Shown here: positions 376-58,760 of the stretch, piece by piece | How the letters are laid out: each line of letters opens with the position of its first letter | Position numbering within the stretch: the first letter of the stretch is position 1 | DNA from: Morchella semilibera | Lineage: Eukaryota > Ascomycota > Pezizomycetes > Pezizales > Morchellaceae | Direction of reading: 5' to 3' | Length of the DNA stretch: 64,000 nt | Assembly (NCBI GenBank): GCA_009192285.1 | Contig: CM018604.1 | Coordinates: 1,736,001 to 1,800,000, forward strand | Notes under the pieces: generated by a model | Databases searched by the model: none | The model's input: the letters and a program-made list of their open reading frames with translations, nothing else | Told to the model about the DNA's origin: nothing | Translations under genes and position numbers: made by a program

Positions 376-385
376 CATCAGCAAG
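376..385 (+). repeat. Left terminal inverted repeat of the Plavaka element
   Basis: CATCAGCAAG, preceded by target base pair TA. It matches the reverse complement of 12068-12077. The first nine bases are also the ends of the seven 137-bp MITEs in this window. Confidence 0.9.
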
Positions 386-689
386 CCTATTCAACCCTAC
401 CGGAGGCCCGGGAGGTGTGGGAGACGTTCGGAGACACCCGTCAAACTTTCGATCTCCAGGGGCTTACCCGCCCGTACGAGGGCCTCCTGAGCCTTTGCAG
501 GAGCCTCCCGAGCCTTCAAGAAGGCTTAGCGGGCTCTCCTGATGCTAAGCGGCGCTCTCCTGGCGCCATCTGGAGGCTTTGTAATATTCTCTCCCAAGAG
601 GCTGCGAGATATCGTAGACCTCCACACTAGTAGGAGGTTTTCGTTTAGAGAGGCTTCAGAGACGCTCTGTTATAAGCCCAAGGATGAGT
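386..689. other. Left subterminal region of the Plavaka element
   Basis: No gene is supported; the reading frame crossing this stretch starts in the outer LTR and is a shadow. It holds several copies of the GGCTT/GGCTC...GAGCC motif, for example GAGGGCCTCCTGAGCC near 478 and GAGCCTCCCGAGCCTTC near 500. These are likely transposase-binding or structural repeats. Confidence 0.5.
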
Positions 690-1718
690 AGGGCGTTCTC
701 GTGAGGGCTCCCCAAGCCCTCCTGCTATCTCCGGAGGATTAAGCGAGATCTCCCAAGCTCTCCTGTAATCCCTGCCAATCTCCTGGGCTCTCCTGAGGGC
801 TCGCCAAGCCCTCCTGATATCTCCGGAGACTGCTGATGATTAAGCGAAACCTCCCAAGCTCTCCTGTGATCCCTGCCAATCTCCTGGGCTCTCCTGAGGG
901 CTCGCCAAGCCCTCCTGATATCTCCGGAGACTGCTGATGATTAAGCGAAACCTCCCAAGCTCTCCTGTAATCCCTGCCAATCTCCTGGGCTCTCCTGAGG
1001 GCTCGCCAAGCCCTCCTGATATCTCCGGAGACTACTGATGATTAAGCGAAACCTCCCAAGCTCTCCTGTAATCCCTGTCAATCTCCTGGGCTCTCCTGAG
1101 GGCTCGCCAAGCCCTCCTGATATCTCCGGAGACTACTGATGATTAAGCGAAACCTCCCAAGCTCTCCCGTAATCCCTGTCAATCTCCTGGGCTCTCCTGA
1201 GGGCTCGCCAAGCCCTCCTGATATCTCCGGAGACTACTGATGATTAAGCGAAACCTCCCAAGCTCTTCCGTAATCCCTGCCAATCTCCTGGGCTCTCCTG
1301 AGGGCTCGCCAAGCCCTCCTGATATCTCCGGAGACTACTGATGATTAAGCGAAACCTCCCAAGCTCTCCCGTAATCCCTGCCAATCTCCTGGGCTCTCCT
1401 GAGGGCTCGCCAAGCCCTCCTGATATCTCCGGAGACTACTGATGATTAAGCGAAACCTCCCAAGCTCTCCTGTAATCCCTGTCAATCTCCTGGGCTCTCC
1501 TGAGGGCTCGCCAAGCCCTCCTGATATCTCCGGAGACTACTGATGATTAAGCGAAACCTCCCAAGCTCTCCCGTAATCCCTGCCAATCTCCTGGGCTCTC
1601 CTGAGGGCTCGCCAAGCCCTCCTGATATCTCCGGAGACTCTTGAAGATTAAGCCAGATCTCCCATGCTCTCCTGTAATCCCTGCCTATCTCCTGGGCTCT
1701 CCCAATATCTCCGAGGAC
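690..1718 (+). repeat. Tandem array, ten 101-bp units
   Basis: The anchor TAAG occurs at 740, 841, 942, 1043, 1144, 1245, 1346, 1447, 1548 and 1649, a period of exactly 101 bp. The eight units from the second to the ninth are nearly identical; the first and last have diverged. Each unit holds two short palindromes, GAGGGCTCGCCAAGCCCTC and TCTCCGGAGA. Plavaka and CACTA ends commonly carry subterminal repeats bound by the transposase, and that is the likely role. The same unit recurs inverted at 5866-6447. Confidence 0.92.
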
Positions 1719-1880
1719 TTTCAAACTATTACTAATCTACTGATACCTCAAAATCCACTTTGATTATTCATACCATACATAAAAATAGGAGTCCTCCCCC
1801 AAAATCACATATCCACCGTCGAGGCGGGAGGAGGCTCTTGAAATGCCTCTCCCGCCTTCGCCATGCCCACGTCCCCCAAA
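1719..1880. other. Spacer between the array and the DUF6532-like gene
   Basis: About 160 bp. It holds the 3' flank of the minus-strand gene ending at 1881. No other gene or repeat is recognised. Confidence 0.4.
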
Positions 1881-3880
1881 TCACTCAATCGCTGCTGGTG
1901 CCTTCCCTTTCTTCCCGCGCGCCTTTGCAGCTCTCCATGCGGCTATATCCGCAGCTAATTGAACATCATCCTCCTCCAGGCCGACTCTGGATATAACCTC
2001 TTTAGGCCCTCTTAACTCATCGACCTAAAAGGCTTGTTAGTATATAGATAAGGCTCTTTGAGACTTTTTTATTTACCTTCTCGCGAATTGATTCTCGTAT
2101 TACTTCCAGTGTGCCCTCCTGGTTCTCCTTGCTTCTCTTCCCCCATGTGCTTAACATCCTGTTATAGGTAGCTGGAGGTATCCCGAAGTCAGAAGGAGCC
2201 TTTTAGAGGGCTTGGTGCGCCTTACTCATGATATCCGGATTCTGATGAGGATTGAAGTTCAACCCTTCGACGTATATGCCTGTTTTCCAAGATCGTAAGA
2301 TAAACCAGATTGCGGTGCAAACTAGGCTAATAAACGCCTGAGATATATCATCAATGAAACCAGGATCCCTGGCCCCACGCATTTTATCACCTTTGTAATA
2401 TTTTAGAAATATTACTTCTACGATTTCCGGGGCCCAAAAGTGAAGCCGGCCTGTCTAGTGGCTGTCAGCACCTTGCCAAAGGCTCATAGAACGGTGGAGA
2501 GAGCTCTTACAGTATAATTATCAGGATCGCTTATAAAACGGTCATTCTCGAGGAGAAAGGACACCTTCTTACCCTTTGCCTCTGGCGTTTTCTCCTCGCT
2601 CAAGCCATACAAAAGATCCTTCGACATGCAGTCCTTCACTGTAAAAACAAGGTGCGATCTCACCCGCGAACAATTGATTTGAACCTAATGGAAGCAGTTA
2701 GCGAAGGCTCACTAAGCCCTCCGAAAGGCGCGCGAGGCACTCACGTCGCTCCTAGCTAACTTAGTCATTGGTAGACTTGTATTAAAATGGTCGTTTGCCT
2801 CACTCCAAAACCGACGGACGTTAATACTAAGAGAATCAGCTTGAGGCCAAGGCTCCTCGAGCAATGTATAACGTCCGAGAAGGTATCCCGCATGCTTGAT
2901 TACGGACTTGGCCTCTGCTGCGTTTTCATTAATGGAGTCAGGCTCTGGTGCTCCATACTGCGAAGGCGTTGGCGTTCCATACTGCGAAGGCGTTGGCGTT
3001 CTATATGGAGATAGGGCTCTACGATATTGCTGTGGAGAGCTAGGCATGCGAAAGGGTTGTGAATTTGAAGGGGTTGTCTCGTTCTCGCGGTCGAGCTCTT
3101 GTCGCAAGGTGCTGCTGGTCGAGCGAAATGAGGAACTTGTGGAGGCGATGCTAGCCCTTTCGGAGGCTGCTCCAGCCTTCCGTGGAGTTTCCAGCCTTCG
3201 TGAATTCACGACATGACGGTTTCCGTGCTCCGTTATATCAGCGGTTTGACTGAGACGAGGGGGATTTAAATATCACATACCTGCATCATATTTACTGCAA
3301 AAGAAGAAGAAGCAATTGCTTCTGCCGCCAGTCCACTAGGTCTCCTTCGAGTGGCTGCAAGAGCCCTGGCGGAGGCCACAGGGGCCTCCCTTGGTGTTTT
3401 TCCAGCTCGCGACCCCCGGTTTGATGGTGGTCGTGGCAGTGGTCGTGATGGTGGTGGTAGTTGTGGTGGTTGTGGTGGGGATGGTGGGACTGGGGATATA
3501 CTCCGTTCTGATAAAGGCATACGCTGGGGCGGTGGTGCATTCTCATCTCCCGGCTCCTCGTCCTCATAGTCATCCTCATGGATTTGAACGTAGTCTTCCT
3601 CCTCTGGATGATCATCAAAATCACTCCAGGTTTTTGGTGGGCCCTGCAACGCTCCGTTTACCAATATTGCCCCGTCCGGAAACCTTTCTGGAGGGTTCGG
3701 GGAGCCATAGTAATCGGGGTCAGTATCTGGTTCTGTAGTACCGGAATTCCTACTGCTCGCAGCACTCGAAATACTCATCGCCCCCCTTAGACGTTTATTA
3801 ATGGAGGAGGAGATCGGGGCTTGCATGCCATGTCCTTCCTCAACGCCACGCTTGTTGATTTTTGCTCTCTGCGAAGCCAT
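1881..3880 (-). CDS. Accessory protein resembling DUF6532 family, five exons, one internal stop
   Basis: Exons read on the minus strand: 3880-3281, 3227-2745, 2684-2511, 2454-2077, 2024-1881. The four introns are 52-60 bp with GT...AG ends and branch-like CTGAT, CTAAC, CTGAC and CTAAC, and every junction keeps the frame, giving 592 codons. I chose the ATG at 3880 (MASQRAK); an earlier in-frame GTG is less likely. The first 280 residues are low-complexity, acidic and proline-rich. The region at about residues 290-500 (GYLLGRYTLLEEPWPQ, LHFWAPEIVEVIF, VCTAIWFIL) recalls DUF6532 domains of fungal proteins, many found in repeat-rich regions; that is a recollection, not a search. The tail is basic. 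One TAA lies in exon 4 at 2205-2203 (codon 503) while the frame and the next intron beyond it are intact, so it could be a recent nonsense change or the true end. The role in transposition is unknown. Confidence 0.6.
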
Positions 3881-4242
3881 GATGGTGGTTTGTAAGGCTG
3901 GAAGAGCCTTCATGAAGGCTCTCACCTCCACTATATATGGTTCGATTCACACCATATCACCTTTGCTTTTTCTCGGCAATTAGAGGTTTTTGGCGAGAAG
4001 CCTTCCGGACGGCTCGCTAAGACAGAATCAATTCTATAACTAACCTAAATAAGATAACACGATACCCAAATAGGCAACCATATATTCCCAAACAGGCAAA
4101 ATTGCAACTGCATCTCCAAAAAACAAAAAACAACTGCAGTCAACATCAAACCGCTTATCAGGCCTTCTAAGCTCTAATCAAGCCTTCTAAGCTCTAATCA
4201 AGCCTTCTAAGCTCCAATCAACGCCCCTCGGGCCTTCTAAAC
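3881..4242. other. Spacer between the DUF6532-like gene and U1
   Basis: It contains three direct copies of a short AAGCCTTCTAAGCTC-type repeat (about 4160-4215), part of the element-wide GCCTT motif. The stretch near 4095-4125 (GCAACTGCATCTCC then A-rich) resembles the 3' flank of U2 near 6507-6530, consistent with duplication of U1 and U2 with their flanks. Confidence 0.4.
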
Positions 4243-5484
4243 TCACACTAGGTCGCTAGAGTCCTCGGAGACACGGTCATTGGCATCTCCGCCTTCACCA
4301 TTGGTGTGCCTAAACAGGTGATTTCTCTCGGCCTGGGTCCAAATACGTTCACGATCATAGTGACAAGACTCAAAGGTAATGGCATTTGGGTAGAGCCTTC
4401 TATAATGCTCACCGAGCCTTCTTCCAATCGCCGCGTACCTCTCGGAACGCTCATGCACCACCGCCTGGAGCATCTGGCACCCCTCATCAGTACGGGGCAT
4501 GGAGATATTCAAACCTGTTTGATCAACCTTATTCCTAAACGTTAGCATTTCCTCCTCAACATCAAGCTCTATTCCATCAATGTCGCCTCTAGTAAGGTGC
4601 TGATATCCTTCTAGTGAAGGTGTTTGAGGCATTTGGGTAGGCCCAGTAACGATTGCCGAAGGCCTGTGAAGCACCGCACAGAGCCTTAAGGGTTTTGCCT
4701 CTGTGGTTTTGAGCCAACCTTCCAGCTCTTCAGAATCTCCGATCTGCACATATTCCGGATTTGGGGGATAGGGTGCCTGCCCCCGGGGGGCCGAATTGGA
4801 CAACGCCCCGTAGAAGGCTCGGAAAGCCCTCGCGGGGCTCCCTGGAGCCGCTGGTGGGGCTCGCTTTATTGCAAGTCTTTCTAAATCTTGCATAGACAAC
4901 CCCTGAAGGATGTTAATAAAGGGGATAAGCGATCCGGGCCCGTACCAATCATAGTGGCGGTATATATCGCTGGGGATGCCTGTAACCCTTTCTGGGTCAA
5001 TAATATGTATGGTTATTGCCGGCCTGTAGGGTATTCCCAAGGCCTGCCAGAACTCCGGTGTGGTCTGCAGTTCGTTTGTGCGGGCAGGAGGTGCCCCGGA
5101 GGTGGGTGTATCTTTAACTTCATCATCTGCGCCCCCCAAAGCCCCACCGTGGCGTTGGGCTGTCCTGTTTCTCTTCTGGGATAGATCGATAATGAGGCGG
5201 AGGAGGGCTGCTTGGATCTTTATAGAGTCCTCTGAAGCCTTTGCTGACCATGTGGTCTTTAGCGCCTTGATGGCCCTGTGGTCCATGCAAAATTGACACA
5301 GATTGTTGAATAATTGTTCGCCCGAGGTGACCTTATTAACCCACCCTATTCTTACCATCTCGTCCGCGAGGTCGCTACGGAGAGCCTTATAGATAGCATC
5401 TTTTCCAGTCAATTGTAGGATTCTTCGGCAGTCGTGGATTGTCGTGCACTTGTACGTAGCAGCTGGTCTCCCGCGTGGTGGCAT
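4243..5484 (-). CDS. Unknown accessory protein U1 (413 aa)
   Basis: I do not recognise the family. It is one open frame of 413 residues starting MPPRGRPAATYKC, with no signal peptide or membrane segment visible. Residues 10-305 align by eye with U2 (6741-8192), with shared blocks DCRRIL, ADEM..GWVNK, KASEDSIKIQAAL, DLSQKR, PAITIHIIDPE, YDWYG and LRLCAVLHRPSAIV. A short proline and threonine-rich insert at about residues 125-145 is absent from U2. The C-terminal 100 residues are mostly charged, predicted helical (ERSERYAAIGRRLGEHYRRL), and missing from the U2 frame. The gene lies between the DUF6532-like gene and a promoter resembling that of U2. Conservation of two copies within one transposon suggests a role for the element, such as DNA binding or counter-silencing, but nothing in the sequence shows it. 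Confidence 0.7.
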   Translation of the reverse strand: MPPRGRPAATYKCTTIHDCRRILQLTGKDAIYKALRSDLADEMVRIGWVNKVTSGEQLFNNLCQFCMDHRAIKALKTTWSAKASEDSIKIQAALLRLIIDLSQKRNRTAQRHGGALGGADDEVKDTPTSGAPPARTNELQTTPEFWQALGIPYRPAITIHIIDPERVTGIPSDIYRHYDWYGPGSLIPFINILQGLSMQDLERLAIKRAPPAAPGSPARAFRAFYGALSNSAPRGQAPYPPNPEYVQIGDSEELEGWLKTTEAKPLRLCAVLHRPSAIVTGPTQMPQTPSLEGYQHLTRGDIDGIELDVEEEMLTFRNKVDQTGLNISMPRTDEGCQMLQAVVHERSERYAAIGRRLGEHYRRLYPNAITFESCHYDRERIWTQAERNHLFRHTNGEGGDANDRVSEDSSDLV

Positions 5485-5865
5485 GGTTGGAGCCTTTTCC
5501 GGGTTTGTGGGGCCTTTTTGGAGGTTTGGGGTAGGTGTTAAGATTTGAAGGGACGTTTAAAGACGCGGCTGTCAATGGCTTGAATATAGAGCTTTAGAGT
5601 GGATACTGTACCATCTTAAATACTGTATAGTAATTCAAGATCGAAGCCTTGAAAGGCCTCGAGTGGCCTGAAGAACCGTATGTTTGAAAGTGGCAGGTTT
5701 GAAAGTGGTAGGTTTGAAGACATGAAAACGGGTGAGCGGTGTTTATCTATGATCAAACCTCACTACATAGCGAATATCGTATCACATGATATCACTCGAA
5801 TCAGGAGAGCAGAGGCACCAAGCGCACTAATTAGGGCTTTTGAAGCCATCTGAAGGCTCGAGGAG
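5485..5865 (-). promoter_or_regulatory. U1 upstream region, duplicated promoter copy 1
   Basis: Two blocks are shared with the U2/transposase intergenic region. One is near 5575-5660 (GGCTTGAATATAGAGC, then ACCATCTTA). The other is near 5748-5805 (GATCAAACCTCACTAC, then ATGATATCACTCGAAT). In copy 2 the right-hand side drives the transposase; here it runs into the inverted 101-bp array instead. No core promoter element is certain. Confidence 0.5.
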
Positions 5866-6447
5866 CCTCCTGCCCAGGAGAGCTTGGGAGGTTTCGCTTA
5901 ATCATCAGTTGTCTCCGGAGATTGGCAGGGATCACAGGAGAGCTTGGGAGGTTTCGCTTAATCATCAGCAGTCTCCGGAGATATCAGGAGGGCTTGGCGA
6001 GCCCTCAGGAGAGCCCAGGAGATTGACAGGGATTACAGGAGAGCTTGGGAGGTTTCGCTTAATCATCAGTAGTCTCCGGAGATATCAGGAGGGCTTGGCG
6101 AGCCCTCAGGAGAGCCCAGGAGATTGACAGGGATTACAGGAGAGCTTGGGAGGTTTCGCTTAATCATCAGTAGTCTCCGGAGATATCAGGAGGGCTTGGC
6201 GAGCCCTCAGGAGAGCCCAGGAGATTGACAGGGATTACAGGAGAGCTTGGGAGGTTTCGCTTAATCATCAGTAGTCTCCGGAGATATCAGGAGGGCTTGG
6301 CGAGCCCTCAGGAGAGCCCAGGAGATTGACAGGGATTACAGGAGAGCTTGGGAGGTTTCGCTTAATCATCAGTAGTCTCCGGAGATATCAGGAGGGCTTG
6401 GCGAGCCCTCAGGAGAGCCCAGGAGATTGACAGGGATCACAGGAGAC
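5866..6447 (-). repeat. Inverted tandem array, six 101-bp-type units
   Basis: This is the same unit as 690-1718 but reverse-complemented. The anchor CTTA ends at 5900, 5960, 6061, 6162, 6263 and 6364. The first step is only 60 bp (one shortened unit) and the rest are exactly 101 bp. Units here are more uniform than in the left array. With the left array it brackets the DUF6532-like gene and U1. Confidence 0.9.
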
Positions 6448-6740
6448 AAAAGATAAATCATATAATTATTGCTAAGACCTAAAGAGGTAACCGGGGTAAA
6501 ATTAAGAACTGCATGTGCAAAAACAAAAAACTCCAATTCCCAAATGAAGGCTCCTCAAGCCTTCTAAACTGCCTACAGAGGTTTGGGAGCCTATCACCGT
6601 CGTCGCTGGTTTTATCCTCTGCACCTACAGGTGGTTTCAGTCAGAATAATAAGATTCATATAAATGCCATTCAGGAAGAGCATTCTATAATGCCCACCCC
6701 GATAAGTTCATGGATAGGGTATATTCAGACCTTCAAGTTC
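6448..6740. other. 3' flank of U2
   Basis: Minus-strand reading past the U2 stop still shows weak traces of the U1 C-terminal part (LNIPYP compared with LNISMP), with deletions and stops. This is probably a decayed end of U2. There is no other gene. Confidence 0.45.
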
Positions 6741-8192
6741 CTAATCCAAAAGCTCTATATCATTAATATCGTCCTCAGTCAGGTAATCCCATCCCTCTGG
6801 TGAAGGCGTTTGGGGCCTTTGGGTAGGCCCAGCTACGATTGCCGAAGGCCTATGAAGCACCGCACAAAGCCTTAAGGGTTTTGCCTCTGTGGCCCTGAGC
6901 CAACCTTCCAGCTCTTGATCGTCTCCGATCGGCACATATTCCGGATCTGGGGGATAAGCTGCCTGCCCCCGGGGTGCCGAATTGGACATCGCCCCGTAGA
7001 AGGCTCGAACAGCCCTATTAGGGCCCCCTGGAGCGGCCGGTGGGACTCGCTTCAGCGCGAGGGCTGCTAAATCATACATAGACATCACTTCGAGAATGCC
7101 GGTAAATGGCGTAAGCGACGCAATCCCATACCAGTCGTATGGACGGTACGTATCGCTTGGGATGGCAGTAGCCTTCTCTGGGTCAATAACATGTACGGTT
7201 ATTGCGGGCCTGGGAGGTATTCCTAAAATCTCCCAGGACTTGAGTACCATCTTGTAATATCTCTCGTTATCCACCGCACTTTCCAAAGCTTCGTCATGTC
7301 GTTTGTCTATCCTTTTCCTCTTCTGTGATAGATCTACAATGAGATGGGCTAGGGCTGCTTGGATCTTTATAGAGTCCTCTGAAGCCTTTTCTAACCACTT
7401 GGGCTTCAAATTCGTGAGGGCCTTGTGATCCATGGCATATTCGCACAAATGATTGAATGAAGAATCGCCCGAGCTGGATTTATTCACCCACCCTGTCCTT
7501 GTCATCTCATCGGCGAGCTCTTTGCGTAGAGCCTTATAGATACCATCTTTATCTAAGTGCAAGATTCTCCGGCAGTCGTATGTGGTCTGGCAAATGTACT
7601 TGGCGGGCTGTTTGTATCGTGGTGCCATTTCAGGGGCCTCCTTGGTCTTTTGGACCCGCTTCCTGACTTGTGGGTCTAACCTGGGGGGTAGGGAACGTCG
7701 AGTCTTATGGGTAGGTGTCGTTGGGGGGGCGCCAGGGGCCACCGATAAGCCCTTGGGAGCCCTGGATCCTGAAGGCCCGGATCCTGAAGGCTCGGATCCT
7801 GGAGGGCGTAGAACGGGGCTTTTCGGAGGCTCCTCAGACGTTTTCGACTTTCCCTTCTGGGTGCTCCGGGGTATCTCTTCCTCTGACTCGATCTCTATGT
7901 AGGATGCAACACTACTGCTAGAGGCTGAACTAAGGCTGGAGCCCGAGCTCTCACTATCAATGTACTGCCCGGGGATTAATGGTCCGACCTCCTGTTTTTT
8001 GGATGCGTTTTTATCACTATGGGAGGATATGCGGCTTCGTTTTTGGCCTTGTTTAGGGCTTGCCGGGGTGTTGTCGGGGGTGTTTGGTGAGGGGTGCGGT
8101 TTGGATGCCGACTTATAGAAAGAGGAAAAAAAAGCCTCCTGTATATATGTCAATTGCTTGAATATAGAGCAATAGAGAGGATAAGATACCAT
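6741..8192 (-). CDS. Unknown accessory protein U2, paralogue of U1 (up to 483 aa)
   Basis: Residues from about 189 onward (MAPRYKQPAKYIC, ATG at 7628) align with the whole start of U1, so the ATG at 7628 may be the true start (about 295 residues). If the long frame from 8192 is used, it adds 188 residues that are serine, proline and lysine-rich (SSGSSLSSASSSSVASY, repeated GPSGSEPSGSG-like units), disordered in look, perhaps a nuclear tether. The conserved core matches U1 block for block; the protein stops shortly after the LCAVLHRPSAIV block, whereas U1 continues for about 100 residues. It is divergent from the transposase gene and shares a 380-bp intergenic region with it, so the two are probably co-regulated. 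The function is unknown. Confidence 0.65.
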   Translation of the reverse strand: MVSYPLYCSIFKQLTYIQEAFFSSFYKSASKPHPSPNTPDNTPASPKQGQKRSRISSHSDKNASKKQEVGPLIPGQYIDSESSGSSLSSASSSSVASYIEIESEEEIPRSTQKGKSKTSEEPPKSPVLRPPGSEPSGSGPSGSRAPKGLSVAPGAPPTTPTHKTRRSLPPRLDPQVRKRVQKTKEAPEMAPRYKQPAKYICQTTYDCRRILHLDKDGIYKALRKELADEMTRTGWVNKSSSGDSSFNHLCEYAMDHKALTNLKPKWLEKASEDSIKIQAALAHLIVDLSQKRKRIDKRHDEALESAVDNERYYKMVLKSWEILGIPPRPAITVHVIDPEKATAIPSDTYRPYDWYGIASLTPFTGILEVMSMYDLAALALKRVPPAAPGGPNRAVRAFYGAMSNSAPRGQAAYPPDPEYVPIGDDQELEGWLRATEAKPLRLCAVLHRPSAIVAGPTQRPQTPSPEGWDYLTEDDINDIELLD

Positions 8193-8573
8193 CTTATATC
8201 GTGTATTATAAACTCTTGAAGGCTTCCAGAGACTTGGAGATAGTGTAGTAAGCTTGAGCCAGTGTATCGATCCTAGGGATGGATAGGGATAGAAGTAGGA
8301 GAATAGGAGAACGCGGGGTATCTTCGATCAAACTTCACTACGTCATATATTGGAGTAACAATTGAACATCATATTGAATCATATGATGTCACTCGAATAT
8401 TGTGATCAGAACGTTAGTGCGATAAGATATGATCTATCGGTGCACGGGCCCATTTAGAGTGCCAACCTCCCCGAAGCCTCCCAAGCCTAGGAAGCTTAGG
8501 AAGCCCCCAGGGGCTCCAGAGTCTCCAAAGCCTCCAGAGCCTCCGAAGCCTCCACCAATATTGACTATCAGCA
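8193..8573. promoter_or_regulatory. Divergent promoter between U2 and the transposase
   Basis: A 381-bp head-to-head spacer. It carries the blocks shared with the U1 upstream region: GCTTGAATATAGAGC near 8155-8170 (just inside the long U2 frame), ACCATCTTA near 8190, GATCAAACTTCACTAC near 8326, and ATGATGTCACTCGAAT near 8383. Next to the transposase start are short direct repeats of a CCTCCNAAGCC motif (8465-8555). Confidence 0.5.
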
Positions 8574-11472
8574 ATGAGATCACGATGTCCATTTTGCATA
8601 CGGAGCTACGCCAATGCTGGTAGTTTCGATCGACATCTCTCAAAAGTCCACCCATCGCGGACCCGCGGGTGGTACGACAGGCAGCTTTCAGGGACTCCCG
8701 TTGAGGGCTCGCGGAGCCTTCCCGAAGGCTCAGGAGGTCCCCACGAGGGTGGATATTTGAACATACCAGACGAAAGCGAATCCGATACTGAATCGAATGA
8801 TGATCATACTTTGGGATCCACGCGGTTCAATCTAGCAACTACCATATACGAGGGTGCAGGGGAGCCTCTTTTCACCGCAACGGGATATGATGAAGGCTCG
8901 GAAAGCCTTTTGATCAACCCATGGCAGCCTTTCGAATCAGCAGAGGAATTTCGGTTATCGCGCTGGTTCCTACAATCGAATGTATCTCAGGGTCAAATAG
9001 ACGATTTCTTCCGCACCGTACGCCCTCTACAAGGCTCCTACAGCACTGGTAGAGGCTTCGCACGCCTCCTCGACGAGATGTCGTCTATGGGGGGGTTAGG
9101 AAAAGAGAGTTGGATACACTCAGAGGTCGAAATGGGCGGGCAGAAAATTCCTTACTACTACAGGGACCCTATGAATATAGTGCGTTTTCTTCTGGGACAA
9201 CGTGCATTTAGGGAGTCCTTGGTGTATTCACCTATTATGGAATACAATGAAATGGGGGAGCGGATGTATGGGGAGATGCACACGGCAGACTGGTGGTGGG
9301 AGATGCAGGTTCGCAACACTTACTTAGAAGGCTCAGGGAGCCTCCGCTAACCCCTCACAAATGTTATAGAATACCCTTCCAGAAGGATCAACGGTGGTGC
9401 CAGTAATATGTGCATCAGACGGAACACACCTCACTAATTTCAGTGGTGACAAGAAGGCTTGGCCAGTATACCTAACGATTGGCAATATCACCTCGGACAC
9501 ACGAAATAAACCCTCTAATTACGCGATCATACTCCTAGCTCTACTGCCAGTGCCACCAAAGGTTGGAGTGCGTACGAACGAACGCCGTTGGGAGAGCCAG
9601 ATGGTCCTTCACCAGGTCCTCTCTGAGGTTCTCGAAGGCCTTCAGGGCCCTGCGGAAAGGGGTGAGCTTATAACATGCGCTGATGGCTATGTGCGCCTAT
9701 GTTATCCGATACTATGTGCATGGATTGCGGATCAACCAGAACACGCCTCGCTGCTAAACCTCAACAATCAGGCCTGCCCTAGGTGCGAAGTTGATTTCAA
9801 GGGCCTAGGGAGCCTTCAAGAAAACCCGCCACGCATTCAGGAGCGATATATCGAAATGGTAGAGCGTTATAAGGAGGATACGTCAGATACAGCACCCGTT
9901 GAATACCTAGTGTCGAAATCCTTCAAAACTCTGTACAATGCTTTGTGGGCCTTGCCGAAGGCTCAGGTGTATGATCTTCACAAGCCAGATATGTTGCATA
10001 ATATTTATCTCGGCCTATTGAAACATATGATGGAATGGATTCAATCGTTTTTGAAAAAACACAATCGGCTAGAGAATTTTGATCGGGCTTGGGCGTCCAT
10101 TAAGCCTTACCCAGGGCTTGCTGTACCAAATAAGGCTTATCGGGCAACTACTCAATGGCAAGGTAAAGAAATGCGTCATCTCGGCCGGATAGTTCTAGGA
10201 GCCTTTGCAGTGGCTCTTTGGAACCCCCCAAAAGCTTCGCAGAGCGACTTCGGGAGATCCTTGAGGTGTGTTCGGTCACTAATCGATTTCCACTTGATGG
10301 CACAGTACACTACGCATACAAAAGAAACACTAGACTATCTTCAAGGGTATCTCGAAGATTTCCACAAGTATAAGGATGTGTTTCTGGAATTTAGAGCCGA
10401 TAAACGAACAAGGAAAGAGGCAAAGGATCGAACAAAGGCGCTGCAAGGCTCGGGAAGCATTGACAGAGGCCTGGCGGAGCTTGAGGAAATTCGCGAGGCT
10501 TCTCATTTCAACTTCATTAAAATGCATCTTCTTTCACACTTCCGGGGGCATGTAGAGCGATTTGGTAATATTCCAATGTTTTCAACCGATGTGAGCGAGT
10601 TAGCTCATAGGCAACAAATTAAGATGGCTTATGCAGCCTCCAATAAGGTCGACGCAACAGTTCAGATTCTCGGTTACCACTCAAGGCGTATGGCTATAGA
10701 GATACGGGTCTTAAATCTAAAAGATATCGTTGTCAGTCTTCCAGAACATTACGAGGGCCTCCCAAGCCATCGAGAGAGCCTCCGGGGCATGTTGGAAGTA
10801 TTCAAAAACGAGGACCCACAAAGGACAAACGAAAGATTCCTAGACGATGATAAACACCCGGAACCTAGGATGTCGACCCCCGACGGTGGACCCCACATAT
10901 TATCTGATATCGCCGATATGATTAAAATCAATAGAAGAACACTAGCAAGAGCGGTGTCGGAATATGGTCAGGGCCTGAGCCGGGGAGAACAAGGCTTATT
11001 GAGCCTTCTGGAGTGCCCAGTGGGGTGCTTTAAGTGCCTACAGGTGCCAGTATCAATTTTTCAGAAGCCTGACAGTTACGAGATACACAATATACGGTGT
11101 ACGGGAGAGGCATTATTTAGGAAAAGGTCGACTCGAAATGATTGGGCATGGATTAAGGTGGCCACAACGGAGCCGTGGGGAGCCTTTCAGGGACGCCTAC
11201 CAGGGCTTGTACGAGCAATATTCAAGATACGTGACAGTATATCGACGAAAACATATCAGCTTTGTCTTGTAGAGCTACTGGAAGCCAAGGATAGGGGTCT
11301 TCCAGACGGCTCACACGGTCTTCTTAGAGTTGCGAGGCGCTCTCGGCAAAGGTTTTGGGTAGTTAATATCAGTAGTGTTTTGGGAATGGCTCATTTGTTC
11401 GAGCTGGGACAGGGTCAATGGCTTGTGAACACGAGGATAGATTTGAGAACGTGGAATGAATTCGATATATAG
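8574..11472 (+). CDS. Plavaka-family transposase (945 aa, one intron)
   Basis: Exons 8574-9308 and 9370-11472; the 61-bp intron has a branch-like CTAAC and ends GTTATAG. Joining gives WWWEMQ-NTLPEGSTVVPV, the run expected in Plavaka proteins. The N-terminus holds a C2H2 finger (C5, C8, H21, H26). Candidate catalytic acidic residues of the DDE core are D262 (ASDGTHLT), D452 (PDMLHNIYLGLLKH) and E655 (SELAHRQQIK). A CPRC pair at about 381-384 follows ADQPEHASLLNL. Length fits the family (about 900-1100). The enzyme should cut and join the CATCAGCAAG ends with 2-bp duplications. Coding sequence repeatedly contains the element's GGCTC...GAGCC motif, seen as GSGSL- or EGSESL-like peptides. The frame is open throughout, so it may be active; the start could be further upstream if a 5' exon was missed. 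Confidence 0.88.
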
Positions 11473-12067
11473 TGACAATGTCTCTGGTGGCCTGGGGAAA
11501 GGTACAAGAGGCCTTCATAAAGGCTCGAGTGACTTCAGCTGGCATAGAATGTATTTAGAATAAAATTAACATGATAGTAAACGAAACAATATGATCTAGA
11601 TCGGGGACTCATGAGGGCTCCAGAACCCCTTATAAAGGCGCAGAGGGCCAGAAGCTCCCGGGCGGCGGGGTAGCCATAAAGAGCTGTATATGTTTTTTGC
11701 GTGAAAATAGGTTGTTGGTGGCCTCCGAAACTTACTAATCAAAGCTCGGAAGCCCTCTGGAAGGCTCAGGAAGCCCTCTGGAAGGCTCGGGAGGCGAGAA
11801 ACAATTAGCGAGGTGTCAGGAGAGGAGGGTAACAGAAGGCTCAGGGAGCCCTCTAGAAGGCTCAGGAGGCTACATACAATTAGCGAGGTGTCAGGAGAGG
11901 TAAGGAGGGTAACAGAAGGCTCAGGAGACTCTCTAGAAGGCTCGGGAGGCCATCGGGAGGCTCGGGAGGCAACAAATGGTTAGCGAGGTTATTAGGAGAG
12001 ACGGGAGGGTAATTGCCTTGGCAACGGCCTCCGGAGACCCAGTCAAGCCTCTGGAGAGAGTTTGAAT
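11473..12067. repeat. Right subterminal repeats of the Plavaka element
   Basis: Three to four imperfect 60-80-bp repeats (about 11740-12010). They are built from GAAGGCTCAGGAGGC-type blocks followed by ATTAGCGAGGT and GTCAGGAGAGG. They differ from the 101-bp unit of the left arrays, so the two ends have unlike subterminal repeats. Confidence 0.75.
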
Positions 12068-12077
12068 CTTGCTGATG
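12068..12077 (-). repeat. Right terminal inverted repeat of the Plavaka element
   Basis: CTTGCTGATG followed by TA. It is the perfect inverted partner of 376-385, and the LTR sequence GATTCCTATGTACC resumes directly after the TA. Confidence 0.9.
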
Positions 12078-12424
12078 TAGATTCCTATGTACCGAGATAA
12101 CAGGAAGACGAGACGAAGAGAAAAGAAAGAAAGAACTAAGGAAAACATCTATCCCCGCTATTTAACACACCTCCTCCACTAGTCCGCTATGACTCACACC
12201 TTTGCTCATAGAACCTCATAGAAACCCATCGCTACCATACCCCATAATCCTCCCCACCATCTCCGCTATTCTACATTACCAATCCATCACGCCATCGAAC
12301 CTCCCAGAACCTAATGACGACAGCCTCCACCTCGCACTCCCCGCTCTCGCTTAGCATTACCCTAACAACCACAACCGTACATCGCCTACCGAACTGTCGG
12401 GACAAATGCCAAGACGCCGGGACA

Positions 12425-12936
12425 CACAGGCACCGATGAAGGCAAAGGCAAGGGCGAGGGCACAAGGACACAGAGCAGGGAAAGCGAGGACCAGATGGAC
12501 CTCAACGAGAACGATGAGAGATGCTATGAGTTTCCCCTCGTCAGAGAATCAAGTATTGGGTACGAGAGGCTATGGCTTGGAAATAGGAGTAGATTCCTAT
12601 GTACTGAAATAACAGGAAGAAGAGACAGAGAGAAAAGAAAGAAAGAACTAAGGAAAACATCTATCCCCGCTATTTAACACACCTCCTCCACTAGTCCGTT
12701 ATGACTCACACTTTCACTTGTAGAACCTCATAGAAATCCGTCGCTACCACACCTCGTAATCCTCCCCACCATCTCCACTATTCTACATTACCAATCCATC
12801 ACGTCATCGAACCTCCCAGAACCCAATGACGACAACCTCCACCTCGCGCTCTCCTCCCTCGCTTAACATTACCCTAACAACCACAACCATGTATCACCTA
12901 CCGAACTGTCGGGATAGATGCCAAGACGCCGGGACA
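12425..12936 (-). repeat. Gyp1 LTR fragment, minus orientation
   Basis: It ends CGCCGGGACA at 12936 and matches the Gyp1 LTR, but lacks roughly the first 110 bp in this orientation. It abuts the LTR ending at 12424 on one side and Gypsy RNase H sequence on the other. Confidence 0.75.
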
Positions 12937-35908: not shown

Positions 35909-35924
35909 CGATACCCCCTACCAC
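35909..35924 (+). other. 16-bp remnant of element D between B and C
   Basis: CGATACCCCCTACCAC: the piece of the D reverse transcriptase left between the two Gyp1 insertions, including the right copy of the B duplication and the left copy of the C duplication. Confidence 0.9.
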
Positions 35925-36558
35925 TGTCCCGGCGTCTTGGCATTTGTCCCGACAGTTCGGTAGGCGATGTACGGTTGTGGTTGTTAGGCAAATGTTAAGC
36001 GAGAGCGGGGAGTGCGAGGTGGAGGCTGTCGTCATTAGATTCTGGGAGGTTCGATGGCGTGATGGATTGGTAATGTAGAATAGCGGAGATGGTGGGGAGG
36101 ATTACGGGGTGTGGTAGTAACAGGTTTCTATGAGGTTCTATGAGCGGAGGTGTGAGTCATATTGGACTAGTGGAGGAGGTGTGTTAAATAGTCGAGATAG
36201 ATGTTTTCCTTAGTTCTTTCTTTCTTTTCTCTCTGTCTCGTCTTCCTGTTATCTCGGTACATAGGAATCTACTCCTATTTCTAAAGCCATAGCCTCTCGT
36301 ACCAAAGACTCGATCCTCTGACAAGAGGAAACTCATAGTATCCCTCATCGTTCTCGTTGAGGTCCCTTCGGTCCTCACTCTCCCTGCTCTGTGCTCTTGT
36401 GCCCTTGCTCTTGCCTTTGTCTTCGCCGGTGCCTGTGCTTGTGCCTGCCTGGCGTTGTCCCTGTCTTCATCGGCCCCCTCGTCGAGTACACTGTGCTCCT
36501 CGAGTCCCTCTGCGTCATCATTGTCATCTTCTTCTTTGCGTCGGGTTACTCCGTCACA
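35925..36558 (+). repeat. 5' LTR of element C (634 bp)
   Basis: TGTCCCGG...CGTCACA. Closer to the LTR variant of fragments at 12425 and 17453 in some segments than to the LTR of B, so Gyp1 has at least two LTR sublineages here. Confidence 0.9.
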
Positions 36559-38074: not shown

Positions 38075-41000
38075 GATGGATGGGAATCAACTGATTGTAG
38101 TGTGTTCTATTTCACAAAATAAAAATCTATTGTACCCACTTATGCCTTGATTGATACTGGAGCGTTGGGATATGCATTTATTGATGAAGACTTTGTGCGC
38201 CGCCATGAATTAAAGATGAAAAATTTACGGACTGAGAGGGAGATTGATGTGATTGATGGAAGGCCTATCGAGTCTGGGAAGGTGACCAGGAAGGTGACGT
38301 TGGAATTGGAAATTAATGGACATGTGGAGGAGTGTCCTTTCTTTGTTACAAAGTTGGGACATTACCCGATTGTGATGGGAATCCCTTGGCTGAGGAAGCG
38401 TGGAGTTTTGATTGATAGTGGAAGGAATGAGATTCGCTTCCAGTCATCAGTGTGTCTTGAACATTGCATAGCCAACCACAAACCTATTGTTGCTCGAGGA
38501 ATTTCAACTTCACCACCCGAAAGGCCTGTTACAAATATTTCGGCAATTACTTCTCGATCGTTTAAGAAACTTTCGCAAGACCCTACTGTGCAAATTTATT
38601 CGACTACCCTCTATGCTATCAACAAAGTATTGGAGATGCCTGCCAACCCTGATGGAATGATTCCAATTGATTATCAGCGGTTCCGACAGCTGTTCGATGA
38701 GACCAATGCTTCTAGACTACCACCACATCGTCCCTATGACCATGAGATCAAACTTCAGGAAGGAACAGTACCACCCTTTGGTCCCATGTATAGTATGTCA
38801 CGGGAAGAGCTGAAGGCGTTGAGGGACTATTTGGCCGATAATTTGCAGAAAGGATTTCTTAGATCTAGTAATTCTCCAGCCGGCGCCCCGGTGCTATTTG
38901 TTAAAAAGGCTGATGGTTCCTTACGCTTGTGTGTTGATTATCGAAAGCTAAATGCTATTACGGTCAAGGATCGATACCCTCTTCCCCTTACACCAGAGAC
39001 GATGGCCAATTTAGCCCGTGCTAATTATTTTACCAAGCTGGACCTACGATGGGGATATAATCAGATTAGGATTAAAGAAGGGGACGAGTGGAAAACGGCT
39101 TTTCGAACACGCTATGGACATTGGGAATATTTGGTGATGCCTTTTGGTCTAACTAATGCTCCTGCTACCTTTCAACGTTGGATTAATGATATTCTTCGCC
39201 CCTTTCTGGATCGTTGCGCTACTGCTTATCTGGATGATATTCTTATTTATTCAGAAACCTTGGAACAACACCAACAGGATGTGCAACAAGTACTGGAAGC
39301 CTTGGAAGCTAATGAGGTCCATTTAAAACCAGAGAAATGCGAATTCAGCGTACAAGAGACAAAATATTTGGGCATGATCTTGACCCCTGGAGGAATGAAG
39401 ATGGATCCTGCTAAGGTACAGACAATTATGGACTGGGAAGCGCCCAAGACAGTGAAGGAGGTTCAGGAATTTCTTGGGTTTGCCAATTTCTATCGACGTT
39501 TTATCTATGCTTATTCCCGAGTGGCTCGGCCATTGACTACTCTGACAAAAAAGCATGTACGATTTGAGTGGACCCAAAAAGTTGAACAAGCCTTTCAGAA
39601 ACTCAAGACTGCTTTTACCACCGCTCCCATATTGATGCACCCTGATCCCGAGAAAGAATTTATTGTGGAAACCGATGCGTCAGATTATGTGTCGGCAGGG
39701 ATATTATCACAACGAGATGATGAAGGAGTTCTGCACCCGGTCGCTTTTTTCTCCAAGACACACTCGCCAGCAGAATGCAATTACGAAATTTATGATAAGG
39801 AGTTGTTAGCCATTATTCGTTGCTTCGAGGAATGGAGACCTCATTTGGAGACAGCTCAATTTCAAGTCAAAGTACTTACAGATCATCGCAATCTTGAGTA
39901 CTTTATGTCGACTAAATTGCTGAATAGACGTCAAACCCGTTGGGCGGAGTTTTTGTCTCGGTTTAATTTCGTTATTCAATATAGGCCCGGGAAGCAGGGA
40001 AGGAAGGTTGATATTCTGACCAGGAGGCCTAAGGATTTACCAAAGGAAGGGGATGAGAGATTGGAACAACAAAGTCGAGTGGTTTTAAAGAGGGAGAATT
40101 TAGATGCAAAGATAAGTTTGTTAGCGGGCTCTTTGTCAAATGAACCCGCTGAAGGATCGTCTCCCGTACTTGATTTGTTTAACAAAGCTTACCAGAGTGA
40201 TAGCTTTCCAAACAAAATTTTATCCATGCTCCGAAATGGCGTTCAACAATCGAAAGAGATCTCGTTGGCTGAGTGCAAGGAGAGCGAGGAGGGGCTATTG
40301 CTTTACCGGAATACTCTTTATGTCCCTGATTTTGATGAACTTGAGCTCTACCTGCTACGGGAGTATCATGATAAACCCTCTGCTGGACATCCTGGACGAT
40401 CAAAGACTTTGGAACTTCTCAGCCGGGAATATTATTGGCCGACCATGCGGAAATATACAGACCGCTATGTTCAGAATTGCCATACCTGTCGGCAAAGCAA
40501 GACGAATCATAATCCCCTACAAGGAGTTCTGCGCCCCCTATCGGTGCCCAAAGGACCCTGGACGGATGTCACGATGGATTTTGTAACGGGACTTCCGGAG
40601 AGTCATGGATTTAATGCCATTCTCGTAGTGGTGGATCGGTTGACAAAGATGAAGCATTTGATTCCTACGACGGAGAATGTTAACGCCAGGGATCTGTCTC
40701 GTCTATACCTTGAACAGGTATGGAAGTTACATGGGCTACCAGAGACTATTGTTTCCGATCGAGGGACACAGTTTACTGCTGAATTTTGGAAAGTTCTCTG
40801 TGAACGGCTGGAAATTGCCCCTCGTTATTCCACAGCATTTCATCCTCAGACCGATGGACAAACAGAAAGGACCAATGCGATTATGGAACAGTACCTCCGA
40901 AGTTATGTATCATATCAACAGGATAACTGGGTGGATTTTTTACCTCTGGCTGAATTTGCTACCAATAATCACATCTCCGAAACTACTAATATGTCCCCCT

Positions 41001-41635
41001 TTCAGGCTAACTATGGGAGACACCCGAGGATGACATTCGGACCTTTACAGCACGGACAGACGGTAAACGAGGACCAGGCTAATGGGTTGGCACGGGAGAT
41101 GTCACAGGTGTTTGATTTCCTGAAAAGTGAAATGTTCAGGGCGCAGAAGATACAGGAGGAGATGGCCAACTTACACCGGACTCCGGCACCTCGATATGCG
41201 GTTGGCGATTTTGTCTGGCTCTCGACTCGAAATATTGAGACAAAACGACCCTCGAAAAAACTTGACTGGAAACAAATTGGTCCCTACCCGGTCAAACGAA
41301 TTGTGAGCCCTTATGCCTACGAGGTGGAGTTTCCTGCCTCTATGAAAGTACATCCGGTATTTCATGTTTCATTATTATCGCCGACAGTTGGAGATCCTGT
41401 TCCCGGACAAATTGTTGAACCACCCCCACCGGTGAAAGTTGAAGGAGAGACTGAATGGGAAGTAGCGGAGATATTGGATTCGCGGAAGAGAGGGCGAAGG
41501 GTGGAGTACTTGGTTAGATATGTTGGATATGAAGAACCATCCTGGCAATCTTCGGGTGATTTGGAGCATAGTCCTGATATCAGGAAAGCATTCCACGACC
41601 AATATCCTTCGAAACCTCGGCCTATCAGGAGCTAG
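38075..41635 (+). CDS. Element C pol polyprotein
   Basis: Domain order is protease (MIDTGALGYAFIDEDF), reverse transcriptase ([32 protein letters not shown]), RNase H ([15 protein letters not shown]), integrase zinc site and core ([25 protein letters not shown]), and a C-terminal chromodomain (EWEVAEILDSRKRGRRVEY, YEEPSWQ). The frame is open over more than 1,100 residues; the very N-terminal end is uncertain. Confidence 0.9.
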
Positions 41636-41656
41636 GCCCTTGGAGGGGACCTGATC

Positions 41657-42290
41657 TGTCCCGGCGTCTTGGCATTTGTCCCGACAGTTCGGTAGGCGAT
41701 GTACGGTTGTGGTTGTTAGGGAAATGTTAAGCGAGAGCGGGGAGTGCGAGGTGGAGGCTGTCGTCATTAGATTCTGGGAGGTTCGATGGCGTGATGGATT
41801 GGTAATGTAGAATAGCGGAGATGGTGGGGAGGATTACGGGGTGTGGTAGTAACAGGTTTCTATGAGGTTCTATGAGCGGAGGTGTGAGTCATATTGGACT
41901 AGTGGAGGAGGTGTGTTAAATAGTCGAGATAGATGTTTTCCTTAGTTCTTTCTTTCTTTTCTCTCTGTCTCGTCTTCCTGTTATCTCGGTACATAGGAAT
42001 CTACTCCTATTTCTAAAGCCATAGCCTCTCGTACCAAAGACTCGATCCTCTGACAAGAGGAAACTCATAGTATCCCTCATCGTTCTCGTTGAGGTCCCTT
42101 CGGTCCTCACTCTCCCTGCTCTGTGCTCTTGTGCCCTTGCTCTTGCCTTTGTCTTCGCCGGTGCCTGTACTTGTGCCTGCCTGGCGTTGTCCCTGTCTTC
42201 ATCGGCCCCCTCGTCGAGTACACTGTGCTCCTCGAGTCCCTCTGCGTCATCATTGTCATCTTCTTCTTTGCGTCGGGTTACTCCGTCACA
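41657..42290 (+). repeat. 3' LTR of element C (634 bp)
   Basis: Partner of 35925-36558, followed by ACCAC and the resumed pol of element D. Confidence 0.92.
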
Positions 42291-53243: not shown

Positions 53244-53633
53244 CGAAGGCGAGTTTGGAGAGGAGAAACTATAGCTATAAATAGGAGTATCTTCCTATGT
53301 ACCGAGATAGCAGGATTATGAAACAGAGAGGAAAGAAAGAAAAGAACTAAAGGAAAAGTTTTCCCACCCTATTTAACACTTCCCTCCGTCAGTCCGCTAT
53401 AACTCACACTTTCATCTATGGAAACATATAGAAATCTATCACAACCACACCTCGTATTCCTCCCCACCACCTTCTCTAATTATATTACAAATCCATCACC
53501 CCATGGAATCTTATAGAACCTAATGACAACACCCCTACCTTGTCGCATTCCCACCTCGCATAATATTCCCTTATTACTTTCATTAGCGCTTTGATGACCG
53601 AACCCTCAGAACTGATGCCAAGACACCGGGACA
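53244..53633 (-). repeat. Gyp1 LTR fragment, minus orientation, diverged
   Basis: Ends ACACCGGGACA. Shares the ATAGGAGTA and CTATGTACCGAGATA blocks of the Gyp1 LTR. The first 200 bp or more are missing. Confidence 0.7.
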
Positions 53634-56179: not shown

Positions 56180-58760
56180 CTACTCATTATTATCGTTTAC
56201 CTGGATGCATCTCGGACATTTCCAATCATCCAACTGGCTTTTTAGGTTGAAGCAGGATCTATGGAACCAACGCCTTGCGCAAGTCTAGTTTCAAAGTTAG
56301 CGACCAAGAAAAAAATAAGAAGCAACTATGCGCTTACCGAACCGACACATAGAACCATCTGAGATCTTTCATATGGCTTCCCGCAGGTGCAAAATCCAGA
56401 GTCACGATTTTTCACCTTACGAGTCGTTTCATTTGAAACATGTTTGCCATCATTGTTTTCAGAATCTACGTCCATCGGGTCTACCTTTTCCGGTGGCGAC
56501 CGGCTACATGATGGACTTTCTAGTGAAATAGGGCCAGCAAAACCAAGTCCAACCTTAGATGTACCAGCTGAAGACCAAGGACTCTTGCCTTTCGCGATAG
56601 CCATGCAGGTCTTTAAGCATTCTGCATCAATAACCCGATATTGTACGAGATTCAAACAATGCTTCCAGAACTCGACAAGCAGATTCGAGCTTCTAAGAAC
56701 TTCCCCTCGATCTCTAGCAAAGCGGACTAAGGCTGGTGGGATTTGAATGTTGCCTTTTGGACTATGTTTCAGCGAAGATAGCGAGATCAGCATAAACCAT
56801 TACAATATAAAAAGCATTGGGGGCTCAGTCTTCTTACCGCTCTTTGTAAAGATAGCGATCCCATAAAACCATGAACCTCCGCTCATTTGCCACTACATCA
56901 CTGAAGTCTTCAACCGTCTAAGCCATACGTTAGCAAAATGTTCTCGCTGTAATTCGTGAAAATTACGCCAATGCTTTTAAAGCTTACCTCCCCATGTTTC
57001 ATCTTCAGCCACTCCTCATCCACATCATCATCACTCTCACTGAGCTCCTCGCCCGGATGTACAAAACGTTTACTTTTGTTCCGAACGAATACGAGGCCTT
57101 TTACCCCATTTCTAGCCTCAGGAACAATATATTTCCGTCTTTTCATCTTTGGTAAAGGTTGGACGTCATACAGATTGATTTTTCTCACGGGGGCTTTAAT
57201 TCCATTATTTGGTTGCAGTGGCTCTCGTCGATAATTTCCGATCGAGGCAGCACTCTTCTTCTCATTGAGCCAAGTCCAATCACCCTTTAGCATGGCAGAA
57301 AGATCAAATCTTGTAGTTGGCTTCTGCCACCGAAATATTCTATGATCAGGAACATGGTCACTGGCTCTAGCAGTCAATTGTTCCTTAGAGAGATCCACAT
57401 AAATCTCAATTATGTTGTCCAAACCCTGAGTTTGCTCCCTTGATTTTACCTGGAAATGAAGAAGATCATGGAAAGTAATCAGGTGTAAATGTAAAAAACT
57501 CAAGTTATGAAATTGTCTGTAGATGCAAAGGGGGCAGGTATATCCGGGGACCGGGTACGAATTTCGATCTCTCGGATTTGAAGCCCCATGGTAACCCTGT
57601 AACTCCTTGTCATCTACTGAGGGCCGAAAGTGGTAGATAGTCAAAACATTAAACGTCGGTTTGGAGCACGAAAGCTGCTCTCTATCCAAAGTGGGTGTCG
57701 GAAGCCTAGCCAACTGACGATCGAATCCTTTAAGCTGTGGTTGTAGTAGTGACTTGGCTTGATTCCACCCATAGTTTAGTTCAAGACTTAGGTCCGACTT
57801 CTCGTTGGTAGTAGAACCGAACTGCAGAAACACATCGAACTGTGAAATACCTGAAGTCATTGGTAACGGGGGAAGGTTGCAGTATAAAGTAACGGTTAAT
57901 GGGTCCTGCCACATCTTACTGCCCTGTGACTCCCCATCTGAAAGCAAGGGAGGCCACTTTTCACCAGTGCCTATTGGCTCCAAAGCAATTTGAGCGCTGT
58001 AGCTCTCTGCCATTGCAAAGTTCTTTATAGAACCTCGACTAGTTATTACAAAAAGCTGGCTAGCTTTGATATAAAAATGGTCATCCATATCTATGGTCGC
58101 AGATTCATCAGAATCGTAGGTAACGGTACAAAGTTCGCTTGAGCGATAGAGAGTTGAAGTTGTTAGCTCTGGATTATCCGACTTTTCGCAGATTGTGAGT
58201 TCGCATCTACATCGAACTGGTTTGATATCATCCAGTCTGCTCGGTTGGTGTTGACCCCGACCGCTTGATTTTGAAGTCACCGAAGCTTTATCGTCTGGAA
58301 AAAATAAAAAGGGAGTGATCAGTGAACAAATAAGACAGAGCTATGCAGGGCTTGAGCGCTCACTCGAGTTGCTCGTTCCGTTTGATCCAGGTCTAGATCC
58401 TTGTTTTGACGGAAATTTCCGCCTCAAACTTTTGAGCTCAATTTTCAACTGAGGTTCATCTTTCCCAGTGGAAAGTGAGGGTCGTAACTGCCCGATGATA
58501 TCATCGATCCTCACTTTACGACGCGCTGCAAAACGCTTGCATGCCCGGGCATCCGCGTCTGTGGTCGGTGGTGTTGAGTTGCCTGGTAAGACTAATTTCG
58601 TTCTAGAACTATCGGCGCCGGGAACCCGAGCGACCTCATTCTCGCGTATTACGGTTTCTATGTTACGCCATAGAACAACTCCTTGCCGGTAACGCGCAAT
58701 GTAGGTGTAGAAACAGACGTTGCCTGTATACTTGGACCGAATATTTTCTGAAGCTGGCAT
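56180..58760 (-). CDS. suz12: SUZ12 homologue, PRC2 subunit, with C-terminal PHD finger (about 770 aa, five exons)
   Basis: Exons on the minus strand: 58760-58364, 58294-56988, 56917-56838, 56761-56338, 56284-56180. Introns are 69, 70, 76 and 53 bp, GT...AG, with branch-like CTAAC or CTGAA; all phases agree and the total is 771 codons. A SUZ12-type zinc finger lies at about residues 386-408 (YTCPLCIY, then HLITFH). The VEFS-box spans exons 2-4: SESDDDVDEEWLKMKHGE, then VVANERRFMVLWDRYL, then LLVEFWKHCLNLVQYR. A PHD finger closes the protein: FCTCGKPYERSQMVLCVG, TCARRWFHRSC, WKCPRC (C4HC3 pattern). SUZ12 with EED and EZH2-type subunits makes PRC2, which methylates histone H3 lysine 27 in the nucleus. 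The 58760 start is uncertain: an upstream exon cannot be excluded. VEFS identity is by eye but consistent over three exons. Confidence 0.85.

Follow-up and report, generated by a model that had tools for sequence, protein, structure and literature searches.

A PlavakaB-type transposon in Morchella semilibera

We analysed a window of 64,000 nucleotides from the ascomycete Morchella semilibera (assembly GCA_009192285.1, contig CM018604.1, positions 1,736,001 to 1,800,000), in which positions 376-12077 are occupied by an 11,702-bp Plavaka transposon with exact boundaries. The element carries a transposase gene and three accessory genes: one encoding a DUF6532 protein, and two related genes without a recognised family, called U1 and U2 here. 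It is also occupied along its whole length by a short half-site, AAGGCTC, which alternates in orientation every 10-11 bp, in exons and introns included. This phased palindromic lattice was missed by an earlier sequence-only reading of the same DNA, and it is the strongest reason to suspect that the element represents an undescribed system. The main features are listed below in window coordinates.

374-375, unstranded: left target-site duplication (TSD), TA; one TA in the 12 other flanking-repeat copies matched
376-385, plus strand: left terminal inverted repeat, 10 bp, CATCAGCAAG
737-1702, plus strand: 101-bp tandem array, 9.6 copies, unit with the dyad variant AGGGCTC-N4-AGCCCT
1881-3880, minus strand: DUF6532 gene, 574 amino acids (aa), PF20149; exons 3880-3281, 3227-2745, 2684-2511, 2454-2226, 2171-2077, 2024-1881
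4243-5484, minus strand: U1, 413 aa, no recognised family
5917-6446, minus strand: second 101-bp array, 5.2 copies, inverted with respect to the first
6741-8192, minus strand: U2, 483 aa from the first ATG, paralogue of U1 (the U1-like part starts at 7628)
8574-11472, plus strand: Plavaka transposase, 945 aa, open frame, exons 8574-9308 and 9370-11472, PF18759
9309-9369, plus strand: transposase intron, 61 bp, holding one full dyad GAAGGCTCAGGGAGCCTC
12068-12077, minus strand: right terminal inverted repeat, 10 bp
12078-12079, unstranded: right TSD, TA; one TA in the 12 other flanking-repeat copies matched

The two termini, CATCAGCAAG and CTTGCTGATG, are perfect inverted repeats of each other over 10 bp and both read CATCAGCAAG inward. 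Both flanks of the element are parts of one gypsy repeat of the long terminal repeat (LTR) type, and this repeat is an LTR because identical copies of it (35924-36223 and 41656-41955) bracket an open gypsy pol open reading frame (ORF). The flanks, joined in silico, matched 12 other places in the window (blastn, E 1e-3). In all 12 of these alignments the second TA was absent, which corresponds to an unfilled target; the alignment crosses the junction cleanly in 11, and the remaining match, at 53269-53315, is diverged. Among the matches is a tandem neighbour at 12552-12626. It stems from a tandem duplication of the flanking repeat at 12077-12888 (512-bp spacing, 92%), which places an unfilled copy of the target directly beside the insertion. 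Because the joined flanks match unfilled copies with a single TA, the ends of the element and its TA duplication are certain. No second copy of the element was found in the window (blastn of the element, E 1e-3). The element is a complete PlavakaB-type cut-and-paste transposon, and its open genes and exact TSD indicate that it was probably active recently.

Exon 2 of the transposase matches PF18759, the Pfam Plavaka family, with E=4.7e-54 over profile positions 106-325, and a second match on the transposase exons covers positions 22-101 (E=1.9e-14). Plavaka is the sole Pfam family above cutoff on these exons; a C2H2 match at the N-terminus is weak and sub-threshold (E 0.018), and neither exon matches the KDZ transposase domain at E up to 0.1. 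The element thus combines a PF18759 domain with CATCA..TGATG termini and a 2-bp TSD (TA), and PlavakaB is defined by 5'-CATCA..TGATG-3' ends and a 2- or 3-bp TSD (Kojima, 2025, PMC12730594, cited throughout from the available part of its text). The same study placed Plavaka in a CACTA-like CMCT clade together with EnSpm/CACTA and Transib, correcting an earlier placement near KDZ, and separated off PlavakaB (Kojima, 2025). Membership of the VANDAL family, which has a MuDR-type transposase, was considered and rejected, the transposase domain being that of Plavaka. No relatives of transposase exon 2 were found in a viral contig collection, where absence means little.

The accessory genes

The gene models are predictions from the sequence, and the six-exon splice model of the DUF6532 gene was placed by eye. 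The spliced protein matches PF20149 with E=3.4e-16 over positions 8-193 of the 194-position profile, and the scan of single exons detected the domain on one exon (E 4.8e-8). DUF6532 is named among the domains that two Ganoderma species encode (available part of PMC8955403).

U1 and U2 are 65% identical in their alignable part. U2 is without the last ~105 aa of U1, the C-terminal part, and a search for this part downstream gave insignificant short matches only; at its N-terminus U2 has a long, low-complexity, Ser/Pro-rich extension. A 64-bp stretch upstream of the U1-like regions (5570-5633 and 8148-8211), which contains AAGATGGTA, is 81% alike in the two genes. The ATG of this shared stretch is in frame in U2, where it adds the N-terminal extension, and in U1 its frame closes soon after. 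The U1 and U2 family has no significant match in Pfam, NCBIfam or PDB sequences, and U1 has no similarity to DUF6532 exon 2. No relatives of U1 were found in the viral contig collection, and none of the U1/U2 alignment in a collection of prokaryotic genome contigs, absence from either meaning little. Over 295 codons the proportions of synonymous and nonsynonymous differences (pS and pN) are 0.41 and 0.20, giving dN/dS 0.39 (Fisher p 4e-9), which indicates that the pair diverged under protein-level constraint. As far as the sequences go, this divergence may have taken place inside the element or before capture.

The arms of the two 101-bp arrays are up to 98% complementary, which suggests a recent duplication or conversion. 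DUF6532 and U1 lie between the inverted arrays, as a cassette whose orientation recombination between the arrays would reverse.

Most of what the sequence-only reading had described at this locus is borne out: a complete Plavaka element with a 2-bp target duplication, a transposase with an open spliced frame, two related unrecognised genes, a spliced DUF6532-like gene and paired repeat arrays. Its grouping of the element as KDZ/Plavaka-like was mistaken or inexact, given the lack of a KDZ domain match on the transposase exons and the position of Plavaka in the CMCT clade (Kojima, 2025). It had further stated that KDZ/Plavaka-like elements of fungi acquire extra genes, with TET/JBP in some basidiomycete KDZ elements as the example. 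The acquisition of extra genes is indeed already known, for PlavakaB, some members of which carry a TET/JBP gene in Agaricus bisporus and Gymnopus confluens (Kojima, 2025). In the present element, no Pfam match to a TET/JBP dioxygenase was obtained in the eight ORFs scanned (40 are listed around the element) or in the spliced DUF6532 protein.

A lattice of half-sites along the element

All lattice statistics come from one element copy. When the element with its arrays masked was compared with the rest of the window (51.4 kb), the leading three 6-mers, two 7-mers and one 8-mer were all parts of GAAGGCTC/GAGCCTTC; GAAGGCTC occurs 17 times in the masked element and once elsewhere. A split-sample test was then performed, in which coding DNA was compared with synonymous-codon shuffles, and noncoding DNA outside the arrays with the rest of the window. 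The coding comparison put AAGGCT/AGCCTT at the top of the 6-mers (32 against 7.5 under synonymous shuffling, z 9.6). AAGGCT also ranks first in noncoding DNA, with 22 occurrences in 2,534 bp against 29 in 51.4 kb (p 7e-19), where a first-order Markov model predicts 2.2. The exact half-site AAGGCTC is found 19 times in coding DNA against 3.0 expected, a count reached by none of 2000 synonymous shuffles. Exact half-sites are present in exons of all four genes, and the same shuffles yield an excess in the transposase (10 against 1.4), U1 (5 against 0.6) and U2 (3 against 0.5, p 0.01). Five of the six introns (336 bp in total), including four of the five DUF6532 introns, contain an exact AAGGCTC, where 0.046 would be expected at the rate of the rest of the window. 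There is no excess of AAGGCTC in the remaining 51.4 kb (7 against 7.9 expected), nor in a gypsy pol ORF taken as a control (0 against 0.4 expected).

Within coding DNA, AAGGCT is found in every reading frame, whichever its orientation (9/5/5 and 5/4/4), and the half-sites encode such unrelated peptides as KAL, RRL, EGS, SLL, RAF and EPS. This indicates that it is the DNA which is repeated, not the peptide. Extending the motif by an adjacent TTAGCG gives no clear enrichment (5 in the element outside the arrays, 12 in 51.4 kb), and no relatives of the three-half-site DNA pattern were found in the viral contig collection, where absence means little.

The half-sites are also spaced non-randomly. 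In the counts of spacing and density that follow, one mismatch in the half-site is allowed unless it is called exact. Pairs in opposite orientation at 9-12 bp number 17 against 2.5 expected, with peaks at +10 (9 pairs) and -11 (6 pairs; 0.31 expected per offset), and they fall below expectation at 13-18 bp (1 against 3.7). Pairs in the same orientation are in excess at 20-22 bp (13 against 1.9), with a peak at 21 bp (9 pairs; 0.62 expected per offset). The opposite-orientation signal is present in coding DNA alone, with seven pairs at exactly +10/-11 against 0.29 expected (0 of 1000 synonymous shuffles), and in noncoding DNA alone, with ten pairs at 9-12 bp against 1.5. No such spacing peaks are found among the seven exact half-sites elsewhere in the window. 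Outside the arrays, full dyads of the form RGGCT-N5-AGCCY occur four times in noncoding and six times in coding DNA, with none in the remaining 51.4 kb; a further 17 are found in the three array regions combined. The dyad of the 101-bp array unit, AGGGCTC-N4-AGCCCT, is the lattice dyad with an A to G change.

The lattice extends over the whole element: its 9,791 bp outside the arrays contain 110 half-sites, compared with 121 in 51,400 bp of the other window sequence. Counts per 500-bp bin range from 2 to 12 within the element, no bin being empty, whereas the bins elsewhere average 1.19 with a maximum of 5. The densest bin is the right subterminal one (12 half-sites, 7 of them exact); the left subterminal bin holds 9, one of them exact, and a further internal peak of 10 lies at 8501-9000, far from the ends. 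The motif, its spacing and its specificity to the element within this window are, like the anatomy of the element, direct observations. Individual lattice features are the following.

386-696, unstranded: left subterminal region with half-sites, exact at 489 and 510
3894-3921, unstranded: chain of three half-sites upstream of the DUF6532 start codon
4393-4420, unstranded: chain of three half-sites inside the U1 coding sequence
8704-8731, unstranded: chain of three half-sites inside transposase exon 1
11744-11950, plus strand: right subterminal repeats of 75 bp and of 20-21 bp, composed of alternating half-sites, of which 6 are exact

What the lattice may serve

In Arabidopsis, VANC21 binds the motif YAGTATTAY in introns, intergenic and terminal regions of the transposon VANDAL21; its targets are arranged as tandem repeats, and the element is demethylated along its length (available parts of PMC5735166 and PMC10398659). 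By analogy, the reading that we tentatively prefer, as possible if somewhat short of probable, is that the lattice provides sites for an element-encoded DNA-binding protein with a VANC-like anti-silencing role. Half-sites that alternate one turn apart, independently of frame and over the entire element, fit the needs of a dimeric or polymerising DNA-binding protein. Spaced by about one helical turn, they would present themselves on the same face of the helix. The binder would most likely be encoded by the element, because the sites are specific to it within this window, and U1, U2 and the DUF6532 protein are the candidates. Binding along the whole element might counteract host silencing or activate the element's genes in cis; this is the least certain step. 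With sites in exons, the reach of the protein would include gene bodies and not the spacers alone. Protein binding, the choice of protein and the anti-silencing purpose are thus what we infer from the pattern.

Several results weigh against this reading. The motif was found post hoc, after looking, and in a single copy of the element. The alternation is not strict, given that a weaker same-orientation signal exists at 9-12 bp around exact half-sites, and in coding DNA alone the 21-bp same-orientation spacing is weak (3 against 0.8, p 0.036). The DUF6532 coding sequence taken alone has no significant excess of AAGGCTC (1 against 0.52). The AlphaFold model of U1 has a predicted local distance difference test (pLDDT) score of 32, and 55 for its N-terminal part, with no supported DNA-binding fold. 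The observed/expected ratio of CpG, an indirect proxy of methylation, is 0.70 in the element against 0.73-0.89 in neighbouring gypsy stretches; not being higher in the element, it lends no support to methylation escape. Finally, the VANDAL motif is noncoding, whereas here the exons are hit too.

The main rival holds that the sites serve transposition itself, the transposase (through an N-terminal zinc finger) or an accessory protein folding or synapsing the ends in the manner of TNPA, which in En/Spm (CACTA) binds subterminal repeats. The CACTA-like clade to which Plavaka belongs, the density of half-sites in the right (12 per 500 bp) and left (9) subterminal bins and the weak, sub-threshold C2H2 match in the transposase (E 0.018) all point in this direction. 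Nevertheless we consider it unlikely, since half-sites occur in every 500-bp bin, including a maximum of ten at 8501-9000, remote from both ends, and exact sites are found in exons and introns, which end recognition does not need. A different proposal dispenses with a binder: the lattice would be a by-product, left by a 21-bp mini-repeat of seven codons that slippage, template switching or conversion had distributed over the element and that is now decaying. Such a unit builds the 20-21-bp and 75-bp repeats at the right end, and synonymous shuffling is blind to the difference between an inserted unit and a selected motif. U2 retains AAGGCT at four of four alignable U1 sites, which is not significant against a baseline of 62% for 6-mers encoding identical peptides. 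However, the transposase keeps its Pfam register at the 9810 site (the offset is 104 before and after it), the stretch that includes the 9947 chain shows a net gain of three residues rather than seven (in a fragment just under the Pfam cutoff), the alignable U1/U2 sites are without indels, and the half-sites use all frames. Simple insertion is therefore not the rule at the sites tested (9810, 9947 and the alignable U1/U2 sites), with insertion elsewhere possible, and we regard this proposal as quite unlikely. It is improbable, in our view, that U1, U2 and DUF6532 are captured host genes travelling as passengers without a role in the life cycle of the element. A host source is possible for DUF6532, which is listed for two Ganoderma species (available part of PMC8955403), and the constraint on U1 and U2 fits a divergence within the element as well as one that preceded capture. 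Yet both genes are open and diverged under constraint (dN/dS 0.39), and exact half-sites lie in exons of all four genes, as if these had evolved jointly within the element.

Returning to the anti-silencing reading, it is tempting to extend it: a protein of the U1/U2 or DUF6532 family would polymerise on a phased palindromic code, written by selection into every part of the element including the exons, and would keep the element open while sparing host DNA, as an anti-silencing system independent of Arabidopsis VANC. This full form we consider doubtful. If true, sequence-specific anti-silencing of transposons would have arisen a second time, in a different kingdom and a different transposase clade, and DUF6532, a domain found in a single paper of the literature searched, would gain a testable function. 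The writing of a motif into exons in all frames would, if the lattice is self-marking, show strikingly how a code at the DNA level can be superimposed on a protein code. Neither this gene set nor the lattice was described in the titles and abstracts listed by searches of the Plavaka and fungal anti-silencing literature.

The surrounding window

The region from 12.6 to 53.3 kb is largely gypsy-derived, a nest densely packed with gypsy elements and LTR-type repeats. In one gypsy copy the pol frame is open over 1170 codons (38123-41635) and carries reverse transcriptase, RNase H and integrase, and a sub-threshold match to a C-terminal chromodomain. At 56910-58340, on the minus strand, a 476-aa open frame gives a sub-threshold match to the zinc domain of SUZ12 (E 7e-4; score 19.6 bits, cutoff 28); it is possibly a host Polycomb-type gene or else a chance match. 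The tRNA and Rfam scans of the window gave no hits.

Comparison with known systems

The element resembles En/Spm with its TNPA in having a short motif in both orientations near the ends, in a CACTA-clade element with an accessory DNA-binding protein as its counterpart there. It differs from En/Spm in that the repeats of the latter are confined to the ends, and here they occur throughout. With other PlavakaB elements it shares a Plavaka transposase, CATCA..TGATG ends, a 2-bp TSD and the capacity to carry an extra gene. The cargo is different: DUF6532, U1 and U2 here, and there TET/JBP, which was not recognised in the ORFs scanned here. The 101-bp inverted arrays and the half-site lattice are likewise unmentioned for PlavakaB in the available part of Kojima (2025, PMC12730594). 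VANDAL21 with VANC21 offers the closest parallel in function, that of a multi-gene DNA transposon whose short motif recurs in introns, in spacers and at the ends, some of it in tandem arrays; as in VANDAL/VANC-type systems, the motif here is both dispersed and tandemly repeated along the element. The MuDR-type transposase of VANDAL21 is unrelated to that of Plavaka, and the motif described here is in addition dyad-symmetric and helically phased.

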